Part shown: piece after piece, positions 1 to 10,778 of the stretch
Numbering within the stretch: the stretch's first letter is position 1
Layout of the letters: the number at the start of each line of letters is the position of its first letter
Assembly (NCBI GenBank): GCA_016793415.1
Contig: JAEUMC010000378.1
Location: 1 to 10,778 of the forward strand
From: Devosia sp.
GTDB lineage: Bacteria; Pseudomonadota; Alphaproteobacteria; Rhizobiales; Devosiaceae
Length of the DNA: 10,778 bases
Direction of reading: 5' to 3'
Made by a program: the position numbers and the translations under genes
Notes under the pieces: model-generated
Seen by the model: only the letters and a program-made list of their open reading frames with translations
Told to the model about the DNA's origin: nothing
Database searches by the model: none

Positions 1-455
1 CGCGCGCCGCCTATGCCGACGGCAAGTGCGACGCCTACACCGCCGATCGTTCGGCTCTTGCCGCCGAGCGCGCCGAGCTCGGCAACCCGGACGAGCATGT
101 CATCCTCAAGGACGTCATTTCCAAGGAGCCGCTTGGCCCGGTGGTGCGGGACAGCGATCCGCAATGGACGGCGCTCGTCCGCTGGACCCTGTTCGGGCTG
201 ATCGATGCCGAAGAGCAGGGGCTCGATGCCGCATCGATGGCCGGGGCCGGGGCCGAGGCGGCCAGGACAATGGGAGCTCCGGCGGTAAAGCTCGGCCTCT
301 CCGAGGATTGGCTGGTGAAGACGGTGGCCGCCGTCGGCAACTACGGCGAAATCTTCGAGCGCAACCTCGGCGAAGCGACCCCGATGCAGCTCGGACGCGG
401 CGTCAACGCCCTCTGGACCCAGGGTGGGATCCTCTATGCACCGCCCATGCCCTGA
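1..455 (+). CDS. aapJ: General L-amino acid ABC transporter substrate-binding protein, AapJ-like (3' part only)
   Basis: This is the C-terminal part (about 150 residues, frame starting at base 3, stop TGA 453-455) of a periplasmic solute-binding protein of the family that feeds polar amino-acid ABC importers. AapJ proteins are about 340 residues, so more than half lies left of the window. Residues typical of AapJ are visible in order: a CDAYTADRSAL stretch, NPDEHVIL, ISKEPLGPVVR, QWTALVRWT, VGNYGEIFERN, RGVNALW and a closing GGILYAPP. This run resembles AapJ specifically rather than other SBP_bac_3 proteins. The next gene is not aapQ, the permease usually found downstream, but a cell-wall L,D-transpeptidase that overlaps it by 20 nt, so this may be an orphan or relocated binding-protein gene. 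Family call is firm; the substrate is inferred from the family. Confidence 0.88.
   Translation, partial: RAAYADGKCDAYTADRSALAAERAELGNPDEHVILKDVISKEPLGPVVRDSDPQWTALVRWTLFGLIDAEEQGLDAASMAGAGAEAARTMGAPAVKLGLSEDWLVKTVAAVGNYGEIFERNLGEATPMQLGRGVNALWTQGGILYAPPMP
421..428 (+). promoter_or_regulatory. Ribosome binding site of the L,D-transpeptidase gene
   Basis: AGGGTGGG sits 7 nt upstream of the ATG at 436, inside the end of the aapJ-like frame. It favours ATG 436 over an in-frame GTG at 424, which has no purine-rich stretch at the right distance. The placement suggests coupling of translation to the upstream gene. Confidence 0.55.
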
Positions 456-2082
456 CCCAATCCGCAGCCTGCTGATCGCGCTGCTGGCGCTGTTCTTCGT
501 TGCGCCGGCTCTGGCGCAGGACCGGGTCGATCTGTCGCCGCGCGATCTGGCGGTGGTCCGCATCAATATCATCGACCTCCTCGCCAACGAGCCCCGGCTG
601 CCGCTGCCGATCAAGCAGCGTCGCGATGTGCTGCGGACCTATTATGAGGAGCAGAGCGGCGACCTGCTCTGGCTCAACAGTGCCCGTGCCGGCGCCATGG
701 TCTCGCGGCTCACCAATGCCACAGATGATGGGCTCAACCCCGACGATTACCCCGGGCAGCAGCTTGCTGGCCTGATGGCCGCCGCCGGCGAGACCGACAA
801 GCGCAGCCTCGCCATCATCGAACTCTACTTCTCGGCGGCGTTCCTCGAGTATGCCTCGGACCTCAAGGTCGGTCGGTTCCTGCCTAACAAGATCGACCCC
901 AACTTCTTCCTCACCCCACGCAGCATCGATGAGGCCGCGGCGCTGGCCGGGGTCGCCAAGGTCGCCGATGTCGAAACGGTGCTGCATGCGTGGGAGCCGC
1001 AGAACGCCGAGTACCAGGCGTTGCGCAAGGCGCTCGACGACTATCATGCGCTGGCGGTGCTCGGCGGCTGGGGCAAGGTACCTCTCGGTGACACGCTGAA
1101 GCCGGGGATGACCGATCCGCGCATCCCGGCGCTGCGGGCCCGTCTCGCCGTCACCGACGGCGCCGCGGCCACGGCACCAGGCGAGCCCGAGTTCTACGAC
1201 GAGGCGCTGGTCGAGGCGGTGAAGCACTTTCAGGCGCGCCACGGCCTCGACGTCGACGGCGTCGTCGGGCCGGCCTCGTTGGTGGCCATGAACGTGCCGA
1301 TCGAGGACCGGATCGAATCGATCGATTTCGCCATGGAGCGCTGGCGCTGGATGCCGGACGACCTCGGCCGGCAATACATCATCGTCAACATCGCCGGCTT
1401 CGAGCTGCGCCGTGTCGCCGACGGCGAGATCAAGGAGAAGATGGCGGTGGTGGTGGGCAAGCCCTATAGCCGCACACCGGTGTTCAGCGACGCCATCCGC
1501 TACCTCGAGTTCAACCCGTACTGGAACGTGCCGGCCGGGCTTGCCGCCAAGGAAGAACTGCCCAAGCTGCAGAGTAACCCGGCGGCAGTCGCTGCCGCCG
1601 GCTTCGAAGCGGTGCGCGGCAAGGATGTCTACGACGTCAGGCAGGTGGATTGGGCGCAGGTGACGCCGAGCCGCTTCCCGTTCCAGCTGCGCCAGAAACC
1701 GGGCACCAACAATGCGCTGGGCCGGGTGAAGTTCATGTTCCCCAACGCCCACGACGTCTATCTGCACGACACGCCGTCACGCAGTCTGTTCGGTCGCGCC
1801 GAGCGCGCCTTCAGCCACGGCTGCATCCGCCTGTCGCGCCCGCTCGAGCTGGCGGATCAGGTGCTGGCGGCCGGCGGTGTCGAGGGGTGGTCGGACCAGC
1901 GCATCGATTCCGTCGTGGCGTCGCTGAAGAACACCGTGGTGAACCTCAAGACGCCGCTGCCGGTGCACATCACTTACCTTACGGCCTGGGTCGAGGCCGA
2001 CGGCGTGCACTTCAGCTCGGACATCTACGGCCACGACGAAAAGCTGCTGGCGGCGCTGGACGGCAAGTCGCTGGCCTGGTGA
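436..2082 (+). CDS. Murein L,D-transpeptidase, YcbB/LdtD-like, exported
   Basis: The product (548 residues from ATG 436) is a large L,D-transpeptidase that should form 3-3 cross-links in peptidoglycan, or attach proteins to it, in the periplasm. Residues 1-28 form a Sec signal: a short basic stretch, the hydrophobic run LLIALLALFFVA, then an APALAQ cleavage site. A long N-terminal helical region follows. A peptidoglycan-binding type 1 domain lies near residues 250-287 (EAVKHFQARHGLDVDGVVGP). The YkuD catalytic domain spans roughly 313-490, with LHDTPS followed by the signature SHGCIRL at 460-466, so Cys463 is the predicted nucleophile and His461 its neighbour. Length and order match YcbB (about 600 residues), not the short ErfK/YbiS enzymes. 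It overlaps the aapJ-like gene by 20 nt and probably shares its transcript. The GTG at 424 would add only four residues. Confidence 0.93.
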   Translation: MHRPCPDPIRSLLIALLALFFVAPALAQDRVDLSPRDLAVVRINIIDLLANEPRLPLPIKQRRDVLRTYYEEQSGDLLWLNSARAGAMVSRLTNATDDGLNPDDYPGQQLAGLMAAAGETDKRSLAIIELYFSAAFLEYASDLKVGRFLPNKIDPNFFLTPRSIDEAAALAGVAKVADVETVLHAWEPQNAEYQALRKALDDYHALAVLGGWGKVPLGDTLKPGMTDPRIPALRARLAVTDGAAATAPGEPEFYDEALVEAVKHFQARHGLDVDGVVGPASLVAMNVPIEDRIESIDFAMERWRWMPDDLGRQYIIVNIAGFELRRVADGEIKEKMAVVVGKPYSRTPVFSDAIRYLEFNPYWNVPAGLAAKEELPKLQSNPAAVAAAGFEAVRGKDVYDVRQVDWAQVTPSRFPFQLRQKPGTNNALGRVKFMFPNAHDVYLHDTPSRSLFGRAERAFSHGCIRLSRPLELADQVLAAGGVEGWSDQRIDSVVASLKNTVVNLKTPLPVHITYLTAWVEADGVHFSSDIYGHDEKLLAALDGKSLAW

Positions 2083-2313: not shown

Positions 2314-2955
2314 TCAGCGCCGAACAACCCCATCCGCAGTGGCTCGCTGTCGCAGATTATCCAGCTCTTCCGGGGTGTTGACGTTGGCAAACGGATCACC
2401 GGCGGCGCTGTGCGGCCATTCGACGATGGCTCCGCCGACCGCCGCGCACAACGATTTCAGGCTCCGCGGCGCAGTGCCGGTTTGCACCTGGTCGGGCAGG
2501 TCGCGGAATCGCGCCACGCGCCAGATGGCGTTGGTGGGGTAGGGCTGTCCATCATAGGCGGCGATCGCTGCAGGAGCCTCTCCAAGACCATCGACAAGTC
2601 GGGTCGCGAAATCGGAGGGCAGGAACGGCGTGTCCACCGCGACGCTGATCAGCAACTCGGGCGGCTCGGCCAGGGTGTTGATGTGGGCGATTGCGCCGGC
2701 GAACCCCGCCAGCGGCCCGGCATAATCACCATCGAGGTCGGGCACCGCGGTCATGCCCGCGGCAAGGTGCAGTGCAGCCGGCTCGATTCGCCCGTGCGCC
2801 ACCAGCAGGGGCGTACAGCCTTCGAGCCGCACAGCGACGCGCTCCAGCAGCCGCACGCCACCAACCATCAGTTCGGACTTGATCACCCCACCCAGCCGTT
2901 CGCCGCGCCCGCCCGCGAGGATCAGGCCGGCGGTCGAGTGTTGATTCTGTGCCAT
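2314..2955 (-). CDS. mobA: Molybdenum cofactor guanylyltransferase, MobA-like
   Basis: This 213-residue cytoplasmic nucleotidyltransferase probably transfers GMP from GTP to Mo-molybdopterin, making the guanine-dinucleotide cofactor used by DMSO-reductase-family enzymes. Visible motifs are the nucleotide-binding loop LILAGGRGERLGG with a lysine (residues 11-26), DGDYAGPLAG (74-83), the metal-binding stretch VAVDTPFLP (105-113, Asp108), and FANVNTPEEL near the C-terminus (189-198). All sit where MobA has them, and E. coli MobA is of similar length (about 195). The loop departs from the usual RMGG by reading RLGG. No mobB, moeA or molybdoenzyme gene is adjacent, so it stands alone here, divergent from the outer-membrane protein gene. 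No clear Shine-Dalgarno precedes the ATG at 2955. A related NTP transferase with another acceptor cannot be excluded. Confidence 0.85.
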   Translation of the reverse strand: MAQNQHSTAGLILAGGRGERLGGVIKSELMVGGVRLLERVAVRLEGCTPLLVAHGRIEPAALHLAAGMTAVPDLDGDYAGPLAGFAGAIAHINTLAEPPELLISVAVDTPFLPSDFATRLVDGLGEAPAAIAAYDGQPYPTNAIWRVARFRDLPDQVQTGTAPRSLKSLCAAVGGAIVEWPHSAAGDPFANVNTPEELDNLRQRATADGVVRR

Positions 2956-3046: not shown

Positions 3047-3676
3047 ATGACTACGCGTATCTTTGCCGCCCTGGCGTTTGCCGGGCTGCTCACCGGCACC
3101 GCCAGCGCTGCCGATCTTTATGTCCCGACGCCCGACCAGGCCATCGTCACCGCCAGCCGCGACTGGACCGGCTTCTACATCGGCGTCAACGCCGGCTATG
3201 CCGACTTCGACGCGGCGCATGGTGGCGACGACACCGATCTCGCCACCCTCAACGGTTGGCAGGGTGGCGTCCAGGCTGGCTACAATGCCCAGTTCGATTC
3301 CATCGTCCTGGGCGTCGAAGCCGACCTCTCAGCGGCTGGCATCATCGAAGGCAACGATACCGACCATTGGGACGCGGATGACGGTATCAACGGTTTGGCT
3401 ACGCTTCGTGGCCGCCTCGGCTTCGCCGTGGGCGACCTGCTGCTCTATGGCACGGCAGGTCTGGCGGCGGCCAACCTTGATGTCGACAGCGAGAGCCAGA
3501 CCATCACCGGTTGGGTCGCCGGTGTGGGCGCCGAATACATGGTCACCGAGACCGTCTCGCTGAAGGCGGAGTACCTCTACACCAACTTCGGCACCGTCGA
3601 AGTCGACGGTTACGGCGGCGACGAGTTCAACATCGACGGCTCGGCCGTCCGCCTCGGCGTCAACTTCCACTTCTGA
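3047..3676 (+). CDS. Outer-membrane beta-barrel protein, Omp25/RopB-like porin family
   Basis: The 209-residue precursor has a Sec signal peptide of about 21 residues (basic MTTR start, hydrophobic AALAFAGLL, cleavage after ASA, mature start ADLY). The mature part carries the DWTGFYIGVNAGY motif (39-51) typical of small porins of Rhizobiales and Brucella. Alternating amphipathic strands separated by Asp/Gly-rich loops follow, and the chain ends in NFHF, with the C-terminal Phe expected for recognition by the BAM complex. Repeated phrases such as GVQAGYNAQF, GVEADLS, LRGRLGF, GVGAEYMV and LKAEYLYTNFG are strands of an eight-stranded barrel. Such proteins are abundant structural proteins of the outer membrane; a specific transport role is not implied. 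TGGAG lies 5 nt before the ATG. The gene stands alone between a divergent mobA and a hairpin terminator. Confidence 0.9.
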   Translation: MTTRIFAALAFAGLLTGTASAADLYVPTPDQAIVTASRDWTGFYIGVNAGYADFDAAHGGDDTDLATLNGWQGGVQAGYNAQFDSIVLGVEADLSAAGIIEGNDTDHWDADDGINGLATLRGRLGFAVGDLLLYGTAGLAAANLDVDSESQTITGWVAGVGAEYMVTETVSLKAEYLYTNFGTVEVDGYGGDEFNIDGSAVRLGVNFHF

Positions 3677-3732: not shown

Positions 3733-4815
3733 TCAGCGCCCAAAGTACTCGCGATAATCGGTGTCGTAGCCGAAGTAGCGCGGCCCGACGAGGTCGATGC
3801 CGGCTGGCGTCAGCCATTGCGGGTTGGATGGCATGGCCAGCGCCTTCAGCCTGAGGCCATAGCGCAGCGCGTCGGCGGTGACCGGCAGCCCCGACTCGGC
3901 ATCGAGCACGGTGATCAGGTCGGGCGTCGTAACGATAATCTCGCCATCCCGCTCGGCCATCAGGAACTCGTTCTGGAAATCCAGCCGGAAGCTGTGGCCC
4001 TTCCACTCCTCGACGCCCTCGAAGCGGGCGGTGCCGCGGGCGAAGCCGCCGACGGTGCGGCGCTCGATATCCTTGATGCGGCCGTGGAAAATCACGTCGG
4101 CATCGAGCTTGTCGACGATGGCGTTGACCGGATCGACGTGGCCGGCCTTGGCCTCGCGCAGGGTGCGGCCCAGTTCCGAACAAAGCGTCAGCGTGCCGCG
4201 CACGATCGCCTTCTTCGCCACGGCGCCCGACATCGAGTAGAAGGCGAGCAGCGCCGAGCCGCCCATTTCCACCGTCGCGGCGCGGGCGAGCCGCTCGGTC
4301 CAGGCATTGCTGACCGTCTCCAGCACCAGCGAGTTGCCCTTGTCGTCGCACAGCACCATCGGTGTCGCCGAAACGCCGTGCATGGTGAAGGTCACCATCT
4401 GCAATTCGGGATAGGCGCGCCCCATGCCGTCGCCATCGACCAGCGGCAGGCCGGCCATCGCCGCCACCACGAACGGCGTGGTGGAGTTGACCCCGCCCGC
4501 CTCGCCGCAGAGCACCGCATCGATCTTGCGACCCAGCAGCTGCTCGAGGGCCCGGAAGGCGTTGATCAGTTCCTCGCCCTGCGGCAGTTTTTCGGTCATC
4601 ACCGTGGGCGCGCCCATCATGCAGACGGGGACGACCAGCGCATCGTCGGGCAGCTCGTCGATATCGACGAGGTTCACCGGTCCATACTGCTTGATCGCCT
4701 GCTGGGCCATCAGCTTGCCGACATAGGGATCGCCGCCGCCGCCGGTTCCGAGGATGGCGCCGCCGGTGGCGATGTCTTCCATGTCCTCGGCGTGGATGGT
4801 GCGAAGAAACTTCAT
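3733..4815 (-). CDS. DUF917 (S-methyl thiohydantoin desulfurase-like) family protein, copy 1 (distal)
   Basis: This 360-residue predicted cytoplasmic protein covers the full length of the DUF917 family (PF06032; as I recall Pfam now names it after an S-methyl-thiohydantoin desulfurase). Hallmarks are GTGGGGDPY (23-31), EAGGVN (105-110), AGLPLVDGDGMGRAYPELQM (121-140), then VRGTLT, VGGFARG, QNEFL, PDLI, LRYGLR and a terminal VGPRYFGYD. No signal peptide or membrane segment is seen. It is the last gene of the operon and collinear with the DUF917 gene before it, from which it probably arose by duplication. Its start follows that gene by a 17-nt gap and has its own AAGGAA site 7 nt before the ATG. 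It has four cysteines (including Cys65 and Cys103) against one in the other copy. The substrate is not known; a role with hydantoin- or thiohydantoin-like rings is inferred from the family name and the adjacent HyuA-like gene. Confidence 0.88.
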   Translation of the reverse strand: MKFLRTIHAEDMEDIATGGAILGTGGGGDPYVGKLMAQQAIKQYGPVNLVDIDELPDDALVVPVCMMGAPTVMTEKLPQGEELINAFRALEQLLGRKIDAVLCGEAGGVNSTTPFVVAAMAGLPLVDGDGMGRAYPELQMVTFTMHGVSATPMVLCDDKGNSLVLETVSNAWTERLARAATVEMGGSALLAFYSMSGAVAKKAIVRGTLTLCSELGRTLREAKAGHVDPVNAIVDKLDADVIFHGRIKDIERRTVGGFARGTARFEGVEEWKGHSFRLDFQNEFLMAERDGEIIVTTPDLITVLDAESGLPVTADALRYGLRLKALAMPSNPQWLTPAGIDLVGPRYFGYDTDYREYFGR

Positions 4816-4832
4816 GATGTGGTTCCTTTGCC

Positions 4833-5936
4833 TCAGACCGCGATGGGCTGGGGCTGCAACGGGTTGAAGGTAAGTTCGGGATAACCGAAGGCCGTTGGAC
4901 CGACGATTTCCAGCGCCCTGGGCGTCTTCATCAGGTCATGCACGGGCAGCCCGATCACCGCGATGCGCTGGCCGTAGCGCAGCACTTCAGTGGTGATAGG
5001 CTCCCCCGTGTCGAGCTCGAGGTTGATGATCAGATCGGGCACCATGATCACCGGCACCTCGTCGACCCAGAGCACGAGATTCTCGTTCTGGATGGCGATG
5101 CGCGCCTCCGAGCCCACCCAGTCGCCGACCCCGGTGAGATGCGCATGGCCGCGAGCGAAGCCGCCCACCAGTTCGCGCCTGATATCGGTGACCTTGCCGG
5201 TGAAGAACAGCTTGCCGCCGGTCGAGGCGACGACCCGTTCCACCACGTTCTGCCGCTTCTGACGCGCGTCGAGTACGGTTTGGCCGATGGTGAGTGCCTG
5301 CGTCACCGTGCCGGGCACTGCGGCGCGGCGCACGAATTCCATCGACATCGGCGCAATAGCGAGGCCGGCGGCGGCGCCCATGTTCACCGCAACACCGCGC
5401 GCAAAAGTCTCGAGCCAGAACATGTCGATCACTTCCTTGAAGACGACGACATTGCCTTTCTCGTCGGCGATGGCCGCCGGAGCGGCCTTGGCGCCATAGA
5501 TGAAGAAGGTGGTCATCTGCACTTCAGGGAAAGCCCGGCCCATGCCGTCGCCGTCGATTACCGGCAGCCCCGCATAGGCCGCGGCGATCACCGGTTCGAG
5601 CGCGTTGGAGCCGCCGATTTCGGCCGAGATGGTGGCCGAGATCTTCACTCCGGCAGCCTCTTCCACCGCGCGCATGGCGCGAAAACACTCGCCGCCTTCC
5701 TCGATCTTTTCGACGCCAACCACCGGCGCGCCGATGCCGCCGACTTCGCCGACCCACGCATCATCGGGCAGGGCGTCGAGGGGCAGCACGCGGACCTCGG
5801 CGCCCTTGCGGATCAGCTCTCGCGCGCGGAGCATGCCGACATAGGGGTTGCCACCGCCGCCGGTGCCGAGCAGCGCGGCGCCGATCGACAATGGCAACAG
5901 ATCGCTCTCCTTGAGCAGGTAGCCCTTAGCCGACAT
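4833..5936 (-). CDS. DUF917 (S-methyl thiohydantoin desulfurase-like) family protein, copy 2 (proximal)
   Basis: A 367-residue member of the same family as its downstream neighbour, with all the same blocks at almost the same positions: GTGGGGNPY (24-32), EIGGSN (106-111), AGLPVIDGDGMGRAFPEVQM (122-141), then VPGTVT, VGGFARG, QNENL, PDLI, LRYGQR and VGPTAFGYP. The open frame runs upstream to 6170, but everything before residue 1 here lies inside the HyuA-like gene in another frame and has no family similarity. ATG 5936 is the start because GGGTGA precedes it by 5 nt and the conserved domain begins about 20 residues later. It overlaps the end of the HyuA-like gene by 11 nt, implying coupled translation. 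It differs from copy 1 in the glycine-rich loop (Asn for Asp) and around the EIGG motif. It may form a mixed complex with copy 1 or act on a related intermediate; both ideas are inference. Confidence 0.88.
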   Translation of the reverse strand: MSAKGYLLKESDLLPLSIGAALLGTGGGGNPYVGMLRARELIRKGAEVRVLPLDALPDDAWVGEVGGIGAPVVGVEKIEEGGECFRAMRAVEEAAGVKISATISAEIGGSNALEPVIAAAYAGLPVIDGDGMGRAFPEVQMTTFFIYGAKAAPAAIADEKGNVVVFKEVIDMFWLETFARGVAVNMGAAAGLAIAPMSMEFVRRAAVPGTVTQALTIGQTVLDARQKRQNVVERVVASTGGKLFFTGKVTDIRRELVGGFARGHAHLTGVGDWVGSEARIAIQNENLVLWVDEVPVIMVPDLIINLELDTGEPITTEVLRYGQRIAVIGLPVHDLMKTPRALEIVGPTAFGYPELTFNPLQPQPIAV

Positions 5937-7473
5937 GTAGTTCACCCACTGCCTTGACGCGGACGCGCGTGGCGTTGCCCGGCAGGTAGGCGAGCGGCAC
6001 GTCCTCGACATCGACGATCTCGATCGACGAGCGGAGCGCACCGGCCGAGACGGCAGCCTCCGTGGCACGGTCCTTGGCGTCGGCCAGGGCCTGGTCGCGG
6101 CCGATCTCGGCCAGCGCATAGACCCGGTCGACCTCGCCCGAAACCTGCGCAATGGCGGCGCCGACCGCATTGGCCACGGCGAAGTGGTTTGGCTTGATCA
6201 CCTCGAGCCCACCGATCGGTCCGTCGACAAGGATCGAGCCGCCGCCCACTACGATGACCGGCAGCGGTTCGGGCGACAGGCGCGAGCGTTCGACGCAATC
6301 TTCCAGCATCGACATGATCCTCGCCTGGGTGCTCGCGATGAACGCGGGCGTCAGGTGGGCGACCTTGGATTTGTCGCCCAGCTCGTAGCGCCCTGAGGCG
6401 ACGACGACGTCGGAGGTGGTGAGGGTCTTGCCCCCGAAGATCAGCGCCTCGGTGACGATGCGGTAGCCGACCGAGGTCGGGCCGACCTTGATGGCGCCGC
6501 CGGTTTCGACAACGTGCGAACCACCTCCGAGGCCGATCGAGAACACGTCCGGCATCCGGAAGTTGGTTCGCACGCCGCCGACTTCCACGGCCACGGTGGC
6601 TTGGCGCGGGAATCCCTTGTGCAGCGAGCCGACATCGGAGGTGGTGCCGCCGATATCGACGACGATGGCGTCCGCGACCCCGGAGAGGAAAGCTGCGCCG
6701 CGCATCGAGTTGGTCGGACCCGAGGCGAAAGTCAGCACCGGGAATTTCTCGGCGAACGCTGCATCCATCAGCGTGCCGTCGTTCTGCGTCAGGTAGAAGC
6801 GGCCCTTGATCCCCGTTTCGGTGATCGCCTTGCGGAAGGCTTCGATGACGTGGCGGGACAGGTCACGCAGGCAGGCGTTCATGATCGCCGCGTTCTCGCG
6901 CTCGAGCAGGCCGATGCGGCCGATGTCGCTCGAGAGCGTAATGTGCACGCCGGGCAGCGCCTTGGCGAAGATCTCGCCAGCCTGCTTCTCGAACTCGCCG
7001 GTCACCGGCGAGAACACCGAGGTGATGGCGATGGTGTTGATGCCCTTGGCCTTGATGTCCTCAGCAATGCCGAGCAGTTCGGCTTCGTCGAGCGGCGAGA
7101 TCACCCGGCCGTCGAATTCGTTACCGCCATGTGCGAGGTAGCCGGTGCCGCCGATCGCTGCCTTCAGATCCTCGGGCCAATCGACCATCGGGGGCAGGGA
7201 AGCGGTGGCGGGAAGGCCGAGCCGCACGGCGGCAGTCTTGGCGAGATCGCGTCGCTGCACCACGGCGTTGGTGAAGTGGGTGGTGCCGATCATCACCACG
7301 TCGATGGCCGAAGCCTCCATCTTCGAGGCTTCGAGCACCGCTTTCAGCGCGTTGACCACGCCGGTCATCACGTCGGCGGTCGTCGCGGCCTTGACGCCGG
7401 CAATGACGGTCGCGCCGTCCATGACCACCGCGTCGGTATTGGTTCCGCCCACGTCGATGCCAATTCTGATCAT
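5926..7473 (-). CDS. Hydantoinase/oxoprolinase family protein, HyuA-like ATPase
   Basis: The 515-residue product has the two ASKHA-fold halves of the hydantoinase A / N-methylhydantoinase A family (PF05378 then PF01968), which use ATP to activate cyclic amides such as hydantoins and 5-oxoproline. Visible motifs are the phosphate-1 loop DVGGTNTD (7-14), GTTHFTNAVVQR (63-74), ERENAA (191-196), TQNDG (229-233), ASGPTNSMRGAAFL (250-263), the second phosphate motif VVDIGGTTSDVG (271-282), IGLGGGS (313-319) and VVGGGS (408-413). It stops where HyuA-type proteins (near 700 residues) continue into a C-terminal domain, which fits the short subtype found beside DUF917 genes. No HyuB (PF02538) partner is present. 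The ATG overlaps the stop of the DppF-like gene (ATGA) and is preceded by AAGGA at 7 nt. It is predicted to be cytoplasmic; the exact substrate is unknown. Confidence 0.9.
   Translation of the reverse strand: MIRIGIDVGGTNTDAVVMDGATVIAGVKAATTADVMTGVVNALKAVLEASKMEASAIDVVMIGTTHFTNAVVQRRDLAKTAAVRLGLPATASLPPMVDWPEDLKAAIGGTGYLAHGGNEFDGRVISPLDEAELLGIAEDIKAKGINTIAITSVFSPVTGEFEKQAGEIFAKALPGVHITLSSDIGRIGLLERENAAIMNACLRDLSRHVIEAFRKAITETGIKGRFYLTQNDGTLMDAAFAEKFPVLTFASGPTNSMRGAAFLSGVADAIVVDIGGTTSDVGSLHKGFPRQATVAVEVGGVRTNFRMPDVFSIGLGGGSHVVETGGAIKVGPTSVGYRIVTEALIFGGKTLTTSDVVVASGRYELGDKSKVAHLTPAFIASTQARIMSMLEDCVERSRLSPEPLPVIVVGGGSILVDGPIGGLEVIKPNHFAVANAVGAAIAQVSGEVDRVYALAEIGRDQALADAKDRATEAAVSAGALRSSIEIVDVEDVPLAYLPGNATRVRVKAVGELHVG
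5942..5947 (-). promoter_or_regulatory. Ribosome binding site of DUF917 copy 2
   Basis: GGGTGA on the minus strand ends 5 nt before ATG 5936 and lies inside the last codons of the HyuA-like gene. It supports ATG 5936 over the much longer upstream open frame. Confidence 0.5.
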
Positions 7474-8354
7474 TTTTCTGTCCTTTGGGAGACTGCTGCG
7501 CGGAGCGCGATGAGTTGTTCTGCCGTCGGGATTTCCCCGTCGATCAGTGGAATCTTTGGCCGCATCGCTTCTTCCTCGGCCGAGATCACCGGCACCGAGG
7601 CGAGAAGCAGGCGGGTGTAATCGTGCTGCGGCGCCTCGAACACCGACGCCGTGGGGCCGGTTTCGACGATCTTGCCGAGATAGAGCACCCCTACCGTGTC
7701 GGCGAAGTTCCGCATCAGGCTGAGGTCGTGCGAGATGAAGAGGTAAGTGAGCCCGAGCTGGCGACCGAGATCGACCAGGAGGTCCATGACCCGGGCCTGC
7801 ACCGAGACGTCGAGGGCCGAGGTCGGCTCGTCGAGGATCAGCAGTTGCGGCGCCACGGCCAGCGCGCGGGCGATGGCGACGCGCTGCTTCTGGCCGCCCG
7901 ACAGCTCATGCGGGTAGCGCAGCGCAAAATCCGCCGGCAGCTGCACCATCTCGAGCAGCTCGGCGATCCGCCGCTTGTGCTCGCCGACCGGCGTCCCGTG
8001 CGCGGCCAGCGGCACGGCGATCGACTGCCCCACGGTGCGACGCGGGTTCAGCGACGAGCCGGGGTTCTGGAACACCATCTGCACCTTGCGGCCATAGGCC
8101 CGCGTGCCGGTCTCGCCGATGATGCTGTGGCCATCGAGCCGGATATCGCCGCTGCTCGGTTTGGCAAGCCCCATGATCATCCGCGCGATGGTCGATTTGC
8201 CCGAACCGCTCTCGCCCGCAAGGCCATAGACCTTGCCCCTCGGAATCGAGAACGACACGTCGTCGACGGCGCGCACATCGCCGGTCTTGCGACCGAAACC
8301 GTTGCGGACCGGGAACAGCTTGGTGAGCCCGGCGATTTCCAGCATCGCGCTCAT
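7470..8354 (-). CDS. Peptide/nickel-type ABC transporter ATPase, DppF/OppF-like
   Basis: This 294-residue cytoplasmic ATPase is one of the two nucleotide-binding subunits of the importer. Its motifs are complete: Walker A GESGSGKST (47-55), Q-loop Gln96, signature LSGGQKQR (151-158), Walker B LLILDEPTSALD (171-182) and switch His209 in SHD. The sequence NPGSSLNPRRTVGQ after the Q-loop and the APQHDYTRLLLASVP tail are typical of the OppF/DppF branch, which is somewhat longer than this protein. The start ATG overlaps the stop of the DppD-like gene (ATGA), and its own stop overlaps the start of the HyuA-like gene, which ties the transporter physically to the catabolic genes. The transported substrate cannot be read from an ATPase. 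Confidence 0.94.
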   Translation of the reverse strand: MSAMLEIAGLTKLFPVRNGFGRKTGDVRAVDDVSFSIPRGKVYGLAGESGSGKSTIARMIMGLAKPSSGDIRLDGHSIIGETGTRAYGRKVQMVFQNPGSSLNPRRTVGQSIAVPLAAHGTPVGEHKRRIAELLEMVQLPADFALRYPHELSGGQKQRVAIARALAVAPQLLILDEPTSALDVSVQARVMDLLVDLGRQLGLTYLFISHDLSLMRNFADTVGVLYLGKIVETGPTASVFEAPQHDYTRLLLASVPVISAEEEAMRPKIPLIDGEIPTAEQLIALRAAVSQRTEK

Positions 8355-9196
8355 GCTGCCGCTCCGGCCTTGCCGAAGCCGCTGCCGCCGGTCAGCCGTG
8401 GCACGGCAGCGATCAGTGCCTTGGTGTAGTCGTCTCGCGGCGCCTCGAAGAGTTCGGCGGTCGGCCGGTGCTCGACCACTACGCCCTTGTTCATCACGTA
8501 GACGTAGTTCGAGGTTTCGCGCACCACGCCGAGGTTATGGGTGATCATCAGCAGGGCGAGGCCACGCTCTTCGACAAGGTCCTTGAGCAGCTTCAGGATC
8601 TGCGCCTGCGTGGTGACGTCGAGCGCCGTGCCGGGCTCGTCGGCGATCAGCAGCCTGGGTTCGCTCAAGAGCGCCATGGCGATCAGCACGCGTTGCCGCA
8701 TGCCGCCCGACAGCATGATCGGGTAGGAGCTGGCAACCCGCTCGGGGTCGCGCATCCGCACCTGGCCGAGCACTTCATACACCCGCGCCATCCGCGCCTT
8801 GCGGTCGCGGCTGCGGCCGAGGCGACGGTCGGCATATTTGAGGATAGTGCCCATCTGGTCGGCAATGGTGAAGACCGGGTTGAGCGAACTCATCGGGTCC
8901 TGGAACACCATCGACATGGCGGTGCCGCGCAGCTTCAGCCGCTCGCGGTCCGGCATCGTCAGCAGGTCGCGGCCATCATAGAAGATCTCGCCGCCGGTGA
9001 CCTTGGCCGGCGGGGTGCGCAGCAGCCCCATGATGGCCCGCATCGTCACCGTCTTGCCCGAGCCGCTCTCCCCCACCAGCGCGATCTGCGAGCGGGCCGG
9101 CACGTCGAGCGACACGCCCTTCAGCACGGAGTTGGTCTGGCCGTAGGTGGTGAACTGCACGCTGAGATTGCGCACCGAGAGCAGGGCGTCGGCCAT
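8351..9196 (-). CDS. Peptide/nickel-type ABC transporter ATPase, DppD/OppD-like
   Basis: The second ATPase subunit has 281 residues from ATG 9196. It shows Walker A GESGSGKT (42-49), Q-loop Gln99 within MVFQDPMSSLNP, signature LSGGMRQR (162-169), Walker B with Asp186-Glu187, and switch His220. The methionine in the signature and the RGTAMSMVFQDP phrase are typical of the DppD/OppD branch. After the Walker B glutamate it reads DEPGTALD where most relatives have DEPTTALD. The frame stays open to 10096, but that extension is a shadow of the dppC-like gene. ATG 9196 is chosen because AGGAGGTG precedes it and it overlaps the upstream stop by one base (TGATG). The tail is shorter than E. coli DppD (327). 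Confidence 0.93.
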   Translation of the reverse strand: MADALLSVRNLSVQFTTYGQTNSVLKGVSLDVPARSQIALVGESGSGKTVTMRAIMGLLRTPPAKVTGGEIFYDGRDLLTMPDRERLKLRGTAMSMVFQDPMSSLNPVFTIADQMGTILKYADRRLGRSRDRKARMARVYEVLGQVRMRDPERVASSYPIMLSGGMRQRVLIAMALLSEPRLLIADEPGTALDVTTQAQILKLLKDLVEERGLALLMITHNLGVVRETSNYVYVMNKGVVVEHRPTAELFEAPRDDYTKALIAAVPRLTGGSGFGKAGAAA

Positions 9197-10083
9197 CAGC
9201 GCACCTCCTGCACGTCGAACAGGTCGCGCAGGCCATCGCCCAGCAGGTTGAAGCCGAGCGCCACGATGAGGATGGCGAAGCCCGGCAGCACCGATTCCCA
9301 CCAGTAATCGGGCAGGAACGCCGAACCCGAGGCGACCATGGTGCCGAGGTCCGGGGTAGGGGGCTGGATACCGAGCCCGAGAAAGCTCAGCGAGGCGCCA
9401 ACGAGGATGACGAAGCCCGCATCCAGCGAAGTCTTGACCGCCAGCGCCGAAACGCAGTTGGGCAGGATTTCGCGGAACAGGATGTGGAACTTGCTGGCGC
9501 CCAGCGTCTCGGCCGCCTCGACGAACTCCTGCGTGCGCAACTGCCGGGTGATCGAGTAGATCAGCCGCGTGTGCCAGGTCCACCACAGCGCGGCGATCGC
9601 CAGCATCGAGTTGATCAGGTCGGGCGACAGCACCGCGGCGACGGCCAGCGCCATCACCAGCGGCGGGATGGCGAGGGCGATGTCGGTCAGGCGCATGATG
9701 ACCACCTCGACCCAGCCGCCGAAATAGCCCGCCAGGAGGCCCAGCGTCGTCCCCACCGGGATGGCGATGCCGAGCACCACCAGCGCCAGCAGCAGCGAGA
9801 TCCTGAGCCCGAAGATCACCCGGGTGAAGATGTCGCGCCCGACATTGTCGGTGCCGAACCAGTACTCCGCCGAAGGCGGCAGATGCCGGGCCCGGAAATT
9901 GACCACGGCGCCGACATGCTCGGGATGCGGCGTGATCCAGGGCGCCAGCAGCGCTGCGAGGATGGCGAGAATGACGATCGCCGCGCCGATCACCGCCGTC
10001 GGGTTGCGCGAGAAGCGATACCAGTTCTGGTAGGCGTTGGAGAGCCGGCGCGGCGGCGTGGTGGGGATGGTTTCGCTGCTCAT
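9196..10083 (-). CDS. Peptide/nickel-type ABC transporter permease, DppC/OppC-like
   Basis: The 295-residue inner-membrane permease begins with a cytoplasmic tail and the OppC N-terminal region (a first membrane segment near 30-48, then the periplasmic stretch ending in EYWFGTDNVGRDIFTRVIFG, a hallmark of this subfamily). The transport domain has about five further membrane segments. The EAA loop that contacts the ATPases is at 187-209 (FVEAAETLGASKFHILFREI), followed by SFLGLGIQPPTPDLGTMV and a C-terminal LGDGLRDLFD, both family signatures. The start at 10083 overlaps the upstream permease stop by one base (TGATG) and has GGGAG 6 nt upstream. The frame is open to 10722, but that upstream part is a shadow of the dppB-like gene. 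The importer appears intact, so it was probably kept for active uptake. Confidence 0.94.
   Translation of the reverse strand: MSSETIPTTPPRRLSNAYQNWYRFSRNPTAVIGAAIVILAILAALLAPWITPHPEHVGAVVNFRARHLPPSAEYWFGTDNVGRDIFTRVIFGLRISLLLALVVLGIAIPVGTTLGLLAGYFGGWVEVVIMRLTDIALAIPPLVMALAVAAVLSPDLINSMLAIAALWWTWHTRLIYSITRQLRTQEFVEAAETLGASKFHILFREILPNCVSALAVKTSLDAGFVILVGASLSFLGLGIQPPTPDLGTMVASGSAFLPDYWWESVLPGFAILIVALGFNLLGDGLRDLFDVQEVR
9202..9209 (-). promoter_or_regulatory. Strong ribosome binding site of the DppD-like ATPase gene
   Basis: AGGAGGTG, nearly the full anti-Shine-Dalgarno complement, lies 5 nt before ATG 9196 and inside the last codons of the dppC-like gene. It fixes the start of a frame that is otherwise open for another 900 bases. 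Confidence 0.75.
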
Positions 10084-10778
10084 CAGCGGCTCCCACGGAT
10101 GCGGACGCGGGGGTCGACGAAGCCGACCAGCACGTCGATGAGCAGATTGACCAGGACGAAGAACACGCCCGAGACCATCACCACGCCCATCACCGCGTTG
10201 AGATCCTTCTGCAGGATCGTGCGGATGCCATAGGCCGCCATGCCCGGCCAGGCGAACACCAGTTCGACGACGAAGGCGTTGCCGATCAGCGAGGCGAACT
10301 CGAGCCCGAGGATGGTCAGTGGCGGCACGAAGCTGGGGCGCAGCATGTACTTGAACACCCGGATCGGTTCCGGCACGCCGAAGGCACGGCTCGCCTCGAT
10401 GTAATCCTGGCTCGCCACATCGATCATCGACGAGCGGGTGATGCGGGCAATCTGCCCCATGGTGGCGAGTGCCAGGGCGATGGCAGGCAGCAGCAGGTAG
10501 CGCAGCGCCTCGCCGAATACGTCGAGGCGGCCGGCCAGCAGCGAGTCGACGGTCAGTAGGCCAGTGATGCTGGCGACGAATTCCATGTCGTGCGGCAACC
10601 GCCCGGTGGTCGGCAGGATATGCAGCACGTAGCCGGCAAGGATCTGCAGCAGCAGCGCTGCAAAGAAACTCGGGGTAACGGCGGAAAAGATGGCCAGCAC
10701 GCGGACCAGCGTATCGGGCCACTTGTCCTTCCAGCGCGCCGCCGCCACGCCCAGCGGCACGCCGAGCACGAAGGCGAT
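10083..10778 (-). CDS. Peptide/nickel-type ABC transporter permease, DppB/OppB-like (N-terminus outside window)
   Basis: The last 231 residues of the first permease of the importer are present; the frame continues unbroken to the right edge. The GTG near 10769 lies inside a membrane segment (IAFVLGVPLGV) and is not a start. Full-length DppB is about 310-340 residues, so roughly a quarter is missing. The EAA loop reads YIEASRAFGVPEPIRVFKYMLRPS, preceded by LPAIALALATMGQIARITRSSM and followed by LGLEFASLIGNAFVVELVFAWPGMAAYGI, all typical DppB phrases. It ends in VDPRVRIRGSR, as in many rhizobial relatives. A periplasmic binding-protein gene and the operon promoter are expected further right; neither can be seen here. 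Confidence 0.93.
   Translation of the reverse strand: MAFVLGVPLGVAAARWKDKWPDTLVRVLAIFSAVTPSFFAALLLQILAGYVLHILPTTGRLPHDMEFVASITGLLTVDSLLAGRLDVFGEALRYLLLPAIALALATMGQIARITRSSMIDVASQDYIEASRAFGVPEPIRVFKYMLRPSFVPPLTILGLEFASLIGNAFVVELVFAWPGMAAYGIRTILQKDLNAVMGVVMVSGVFFVLVNLLIDVLVGFVDPRVRIRGSR

Follow-up and report, generated by a model that had tools for sequence, protein, structure and literature searches.

With what partner does a HyuA-like ATPase act when its operon holds no HyuB gene, and what would such an operon do? The question is raised by a minus-strand operon at positions 3733..10778 of the stretch analysed here (the window), which is 10,778 bases long and is the entire contig C75 of one metagenome-assembled genome (MAG) of Devosia, a soil bacterium. 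The MAG has 4.64 Mb and is 82.5% complete, and Devosia includes the closest named relatives of its HyuA. The operon joins subunits of a Dpp-type importer to a short HyuA-like ASKHA ATPase (5926..7473, 515 amino acids; Pfam Hydantoinase/oxoprolinase) and to two DUF917 proteins that are 40% identical paralogues, DUF917b (4833..5936, 367 amino acids; Pfam 192 and 208 bits) and DUF917a (3733..4815, 360 amino acids; S-Me-THD_N/C), the proposed hydrolytic partner of HyuA. Both DUF917 proteins exceed the Pfam gathering score with PF06032 and PF20906 (192–219 bits against 27). No HyuB is found by Pfam among the window genes, the part of the genome to which the search for it was confined. We consider it on balance probable that the importer takes up, and that short HyuA and DUF917 together hydrolyse at the expense of ATP, a cyclic amide, with DUF917 in the place of HyuB.

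HyuA and DUF917 as neighbours, in co-occurrence and in fusions

We compare the window with the best 80 of 319 relatives in genome_contigs, ranked by similarity to the window HyuA and all at least 60% identical to it, and count neighbours by tblastn, counts that contig ends lower. In 78 of these loci DUF917 comes after HyuA at a distance of at most 300 nucleotides and in the same orientation, and in the other two the contig ends 0 and 20 nucleotides past HyuA. Two DUF917 copies are present in 72 loci, three in one, one in five and none in two. Only one of the 80 has a same-strand HyuB within 6.5 kb.

Co-occurrence is scored in 397 Pseudomonadota genomes, the window's own included, where DUF917 is called strong if its PF06032 match exceeds 170 bits and short HyuA is detected by a profile of its last 152 residues (A3, threshold above 120 bits); at most nine candidates per genome are scored, so misses are possible. 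PF06032 matches occur in 26 genomes, 14 of them strong and 12 weaker only. Short HyuA is detected in 13 genomes, all 13 of which have a strong DUF917, against one of the 384 others (Fisher 1.7e-23), with weak short-HyuA matches in G394 (48 bits, in a 110-residue frame) and G336 (20.5 bits) scored as absent. In G338, the fourteenth genome with a strong DUF917, the frame of that protein is just 236 residues long and short HyuA is missing. HyuA and DUF917 are adjacent in the window and in 12 of the 13 strong loci that were fetched (L129-L141, of which L139 is that of G338), and short HyuA is absent from all 14 weaker-DUF917 loci fetched (L142-L155, from 15 places, with G143 left out).

HyuA and DUF917 are in addition found joined in a single chain. 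A search among over-long proteins only, on the best 7,997 candidates by shared words, returns 79 over-long DUF917 proteins, 60 of which match the window HyuA too. Forty-five are full-length fusions, each with at least 450 HyuA and at least 300 DUF917 residues, and HyuA comes first in 45/45. These carry the same two domains as the window, differing in that they form one chain where the window has separate proteins, and the annotations in the names listed are only hydantoinase/oxoprolinase or DUF917 protein. HyuA-DUF917 fusions are found in fungi, an alga and an amoeba, the source names including Aspergillus, Penicillium, Colletotrichum, Mycena, Naegleria and Coccomyxa, with some metagenomic, and because of this HyuA and DUF917 are probably one machine, as yet little known, that opens stable amide rings. 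Precomputed Pfam assignments give other joins of DUF917, to an NCS1 permease (P0142, P0144), to HyuA and NCS1 together (P0138), to SBP_bac_5 (P0132, P0134) and to an Asp/Glu racemase (P0133). The joins to NCS1, SBP_bac_5 and racemase rest on individual predicted sequences, largely of metagenomic origin, that may be artefactual, a doubt to which the 45 HyuA-DUF917 fusions as a group are not open. The accessible portions of the open-licence DUF917 literature (PMC11055893, PMC12915319, PMC9503626) give no description of HyuA and DUF917 as one enzyme; those of PMC12915319 do list C. difficile genes for a permease, a DUF917 protein and a hydantoinase whose locus tags run consecutively.

Among short HyuA rows the phosphate motifs P1 and P2 are kept in 96/97 and 97/97 respectively, and the fold is that of caprolactamase CapA and N-methylhydantoinase, from which one would naturally infer that short HyuA activates a cyclic amide with ATP. 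The ASKHA fold and both motifs are thereby shared with the ATP-dependent hydantoinases and lactamases (N-methylhydantoinase, 5-oxoprolinase, CapAB), although their HyuA proteins have about 690 residues and that of the window about 515. The HyuA model aligns to CapA residues 6-614 of 691 (the ends of the range only), and because of this it appears to lack the final domain that the classical protein has. In the part of PMC8453981 available to us, mutation of CapA D11 and D295 sharply lowered product formation; these residues correspond by motif to D7 and D273 of the window HyuA. The R/KERiDsxG segment, placed on the HyuB-facing side of the alpha subunit in the excerpt of PMC5214803 at hand, does not discriminate, as its loose pattern is found in 0/97 short HyuA and in only 1/20 long HyuA.

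DUF917 proteins that accompany HyuA and those that do not

The DUF917 residue table has 62 rows for HyuA partners (some nearly identical), seven for a desulfurase clade, of which L151 and L154 are scored and lie above cut-off, and five for lone DUF917 proteins without HyuA; a wrongly called frame in L148 is left out of both table and tree. Invariant in the 62 HyuA-partner rows are E75, E105, N110, D129, M131, E137, Q139, R252, Q281 and D299, and DUF917b keeps the same residues. In the desulfurase clade E105, N110, D129, M131, E137, Q139, R252 and Q281 are replaced in 7/7 rows and E75 in at least 6/7, with E105Q, N110S, D129V, M131D and R252V as changes common to all seven, and R133, M140, E174, R178, N282 and E283 are common to the partners and the desulfurases. 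The more distant row L149, kept apart, shares Glu at position 105 with the HyuA partners and differs from them at 75, 110, 129, 131 and 252. Most signature residues are kept in the 45 fusions, with E75, D129, R133, R178, N282 and E283 in all of them and E105, N110, M131 and R252 in 44. From these alignments the HyuA-partner signature is best stated as E75, N110, M131 and R252. No His or Cys is conserved in at least 95% of the 62 HyuA-partner rows. In a tree of 75 DUF917 rows the eight Ert-side rows are one group (support 100/100); the 62 HyuA-partner rows need two changes, and the five lone rows, on long branches, fall among them.

These comparisons bear on whether the window DUF917 proteins are thiohydantoin desulfurases, as in the curated Ert pathway of ergothioneine breakdown, for which the ergothioneine pathway literature serves as our background. 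The Ert desulfurases (NF058529, NF058532) belong to the same DUF917 (S-Me-THD) family, their NCBIfam models match the window proteins at 86-130 bits, and of 19 Devosia genomes all nine with a desulfurase over cut-off also have short HyuA. However, these matches lie far below the cut-offs: the thiohydantoin desulfurase model NF058529 gives 117 bits for DUF917a and 86 for DUF917b against 440, and the S-methyl-thiohydantoin desulfurase model NF058532 gives 130 and 98 bits against 450. The same MAG has an Ert set of its own on contig C560 (L154:2-3612), with ErtD at 674 bits (cut-off 600; its frame is cut by the contig end), ErtE at 586 (520) and thiohydantoin desulfurase at 581 (440). Short HyuA is present in 15 of the 19 Devosia genomes, some of them incomplete, and six of those 15 have no desulfurase over cut-off. 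The Ert-side rows stand apart in the tree and differ from the HyuA partners at most of their conserved residues, and the weaker-DUF917 loci, as described above, have no short HyuA. We regard a desulfurase role as very improbable, and an ergothioneine route for the operon is rejected on the NCBIfam scores, the C560 genes, the residues, the Devosia distribution and the tree. The sequence-only reading of the window had the operon import a hydantoin-like ring and open or desulfurise it; the importer and HyuA-type ATP activation of a cyclic amide fit that reading, and its desulfuration and ergothioneine part is unsupported, given the scores far under cut-off and the separate genuine desulfurase in the MAG. 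The phrase 'thiohydantoin desulfurase' was not found in our search of the open-licence literature.

A proposed second class of cyclic amide hydrolase

We propose that a Dpp-type ATP-binding cassette (ABC) transporter, served by a family-5 binding protein of its own and encoded beside a LuxR-type regulator, would import a small cyclic amide, that short HyuA would use ATP to phosphorylate the amide carbonyl of the ring, a reaction also proposed for CapA and HyuA, and that DUF917, here the a/b pair, would stand in HyuB's position of the classical hydantoinases and hydrolyse the activated ring. DUF917 would then be the hydrolytic half, and DUF917a and DUF917b may form a mixed dimer. A further proposal, to which we give slightly less than an even chance, is that short HyuA and DUF917 constitute a second class of hydrolases that open cyclic amides with ATP, with separate subunits in bacteria and a single chain in fungi, an alga and an amoeba, in which DUF917, with an orphan fold and no conserved His or Cys, would replace the metal-dependent HyuB. 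Its site would be an acidic/Arg one of E75, E105, N110, D129 and R252, of which E75, N110 and R252, together with M131, distinguish the HyuA partners from desulfurases and lone DUF917 proteins, and the desulfurases would be a HyuA-independent branch with another site.

Several points weigh against this proposal. The catalytic role of DUF917 rests on pairing and fusion, and its part could be a different one, such as substrate binding, regulation of HyuA or another reaction of the activated intermediate (carboxylation is known in the HyuA superfamily). The 80 loci are chosen by HyuA similarity and are biased to orthologues. E105, E137 and D129 are not HyuA-specific, because the lone DUF917 rows keep them (5/5, 5/5 and 4/5 respectively), and in the fusions Q281 is found in 26/45, E137 in 8/45 and Q139 in 7/45. 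The DUF917 fold matches only 2o3i, which is annotated hypothetical (Foldseek, VIA-align) and is its sole solved relative, and the absence of a HyuB-type chain among the fold matches listed carries no weight.

At a distance of a few kb from the pair there are canonical genes for both HyuA and HyuB in L043, L044 and L132, and a HyuB-like stretch in L133. These also favour a classical HyuA/HyuB enzyme in which HyuB acts in trans and DUF917 is an accessory, as do full-length HyuA frames elsewhere in the host and related genomes. Such an enzyme would have the HyuB subunit with its Asp-His-Asp-His metal site, in whose stead the window operon has DUF917. Against it are the existence of the fusions, the single HyuB on the same strand among the 80 loci and the apparent loss in short HyuA of the last classical domain, and we think it improbable. 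The main result is the HyuA-DUF917 unit as, so far as comparison of genes and proteins goes, a probable alternative to HyuA/HyuB.

The operon, its importer and its missing 5' half

The importer genes are those of a DppF/OppF-type ATP-binding protein (7470..8354; Pfam ABC_tran and oligo_HPY), a DppD-type ATP-binding protein (8351..9196, with ATG at 9196; ABC_tran), a DppC-type permease (9196..10083; BPD_transp_1 and OppC_N) and a DppB-type permease (10083..10778; BPD_transp_1), whose 5' end is removed by the contig end. Reading frames and Pfam bear out the earlier description of seven consecutive minus-strand genes in the order permease, permease, ATPase, ATPase, HyuA, DUF917, DUF917, with overlaps of 1, 1, 4, 4 and 11 nucleotides and a single 17-nucleotide gap (4816-4832). 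Between 3500 and 10778 there are no sigma-70-like promoters against 0.7 expected, in a scan limited to that promoter type, and two terminator-like sites against 3.1 expected by chance, both within dppB. Among the NCBIfam matches listed for window proteins, dipeptide-type models match the DppF-type protein below their cut-offs, and no transporter model reaches its cut-off.

The binding protein and regulator, expected from the sequence alone beyond position 10778, are both located on another contig of the same MAG, C118. At its edge is a 98%-identical match to residues 1-205 of the binding protein of L047, a Devosia orthologue, and a gene for a LuxR-type regulator, with 88% identity to its L047 counterpart, lies upstream of that gene and reads the same way (in L047 Pfam gives GerE/LuxR for the regulator and SBP_bac_5 for the binding protein). 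Locus L034 (genome G011, HyuA 99% identical) has the uninterrupted order LuxR, binding protein, DppB, C, D, F, HyuA, DUF917b, DUF917a. The Dpp/Opp-type set of two permeases, two ATPases and a family-5 binding protein (a fragment on C118) is complete, and the LuxR protein would control the operon.

DppB, DppC and the binding protein all lie within 6.5 kb in 66/80 loci, and LuxR in 59/80. This recurrence of DUF917, HyuA and Dpp genes agrees with the earlier view of importer and enzymes as a single conserved unit, and because the same order recurs in many genomes a chance origin of the arrangement is excluded. The unit is found in Rhizobiales and, rearranged, in Rhodobacterales, where the binding-protein gene follows DUF917a in several loci (such as L110 and L114) and L110 has one 565-residue ATPase in place of the two. 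Carriers include Rhizobium, Mesorhizobium, Pleomorphomonas, Ensifer, Rhodobacterales and Komagataeibacter, with single MAGs labelled Deinococci, Anaerolineae, Actinomycetota and archaeon, for which binning errors are possible. The operon is a real, conserved and self-contained uptake system, and is probably catabolic as well.

Other arrangements are also seen. In L105 a Dpp set (38-48% identical by tblastn) is oriented opposite to the HyuA-DUF917 genes, because of which recruitment of the importer may have taken place repeatedly. Two HyuA-DUF917 pairs flank one binding protein in L135 and L138, and in the Devosia genome G002 a further DUF917a/b pair is accompanied by a HyuA tail (C45:28353-30509). 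A predicted protein of 813 residues, P0051, carries ABC ATPase and HyuA domains, DppF and HyuA in one frame, on nine contigs, either as a true fusion or as an artefact.

The rest of the window, by Pfam, holds an ordinary L,D-transpeptidase with YkuD and peptidoglycan-binding domains (424-2082, plus strand), a MobA-like nucleotidyltransferase (2314-2955, minus strand) and an outer-membrane beta-barrel protein gene (3047-3676, plus strand) convergent with the operon end.

Candidate substrates

That the pair persists while its transporter varies is a point in favour of the HyuA-DUF917 unit. A Dpp-type importer accompanies the pair in the window and in L129, L133 and L135-L138. Elsewhere the pair is accompanied by an NCS1 permease (L102, L103, L130, L131), by another ABC set, read as ribose-type (L043, L044), or has a TonB receptor beside it (L132, L134), and because the transporters differ, substrates may differ between loci. 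PucR-type regulators are found in 3/80 loci (Pfam-confirmed in L101), a polysaccharide-deacetylase-fold protein, which we take to be PuuE-like, in L097 and L100, an Asp/Glu/hydantoin racemase in L107 and AroM in L133 and L137 (Pfam) and in L136 and L140 (by similarity). Because of these neighbours, and of permeases of the cytosine/purine/uracil/allantoin family, the substrate would be a hydantoin-, imide-, lactam- or diketopiperazine-like ring.

Two more definite choices fall within the proposed HyuA-DUF917 hydrolase. In one, cyclic dipeptides (diketopiperazines) are imported by Dpp and opened by HyuA-DUF917. A survey of cyclodipeptide oxidase clusters is, in the portion of PMC11055893 seen, enriched for DUF917, hydantoin racemases, AroM and Dpp/Opp-type transporters, and because that survey reports these together diketopiperazines are a serious candidate, if still an unlikely one. 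AroM or racemase-like genes are present in L107, L133, L136, L137, L140 and L141. However, the neighbour clusters outside the unit are each common to at most nine of the 80 loci, in a comparison where only some neighbours were Pfam-scanned and no search was aimed at the oxidase. The other choice, a lactam opine or other plant-derived lactam, we hold to be less likely again. Among PDB sequences the one that best matches the binding protein of the orthologue is AgaA, an agropinic-acid binder, at 129 bits, but AapF follows closely (118 bits), and a substrate assignment from the PDB relatives of the binding protein is dropped, AgaA being best but only slightly ahead. The carriers, moreover, include Rhodobacterales and the MAGs labelled Deinococci. 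An Asparaginase_2 gene follows a HyuA-DUF917 pair in L135, and on pTiEU6, in the sections of PMC6733357 available, HyuA/HyuB-type genes adjoin an asparaginase gene near ABC importers. A HyuA-type ring opener near ABC importer genes is thus common to those Ti-plasmid regions and the window, although there HyuB is present and the lactam-opine function is the proposal of the authors.

Implications for the DUF917 family

The two desulfurases are the only curated DUF917 functions among the NCBIfam matches listed, and neither covers the branch that partners HyuA. HyuA-partner genes should not be annotated as desulfurases or as plain hydantoinases. The importer of the operon supplies a binding protein usable for substrate screening. 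The pairing with DUF917 offers a reason why HyuA can stand without HyuB, and adjacency, co-occurrence and fusion with HyuA give a concrete and testable role to a family that spans bacteria to fungi.

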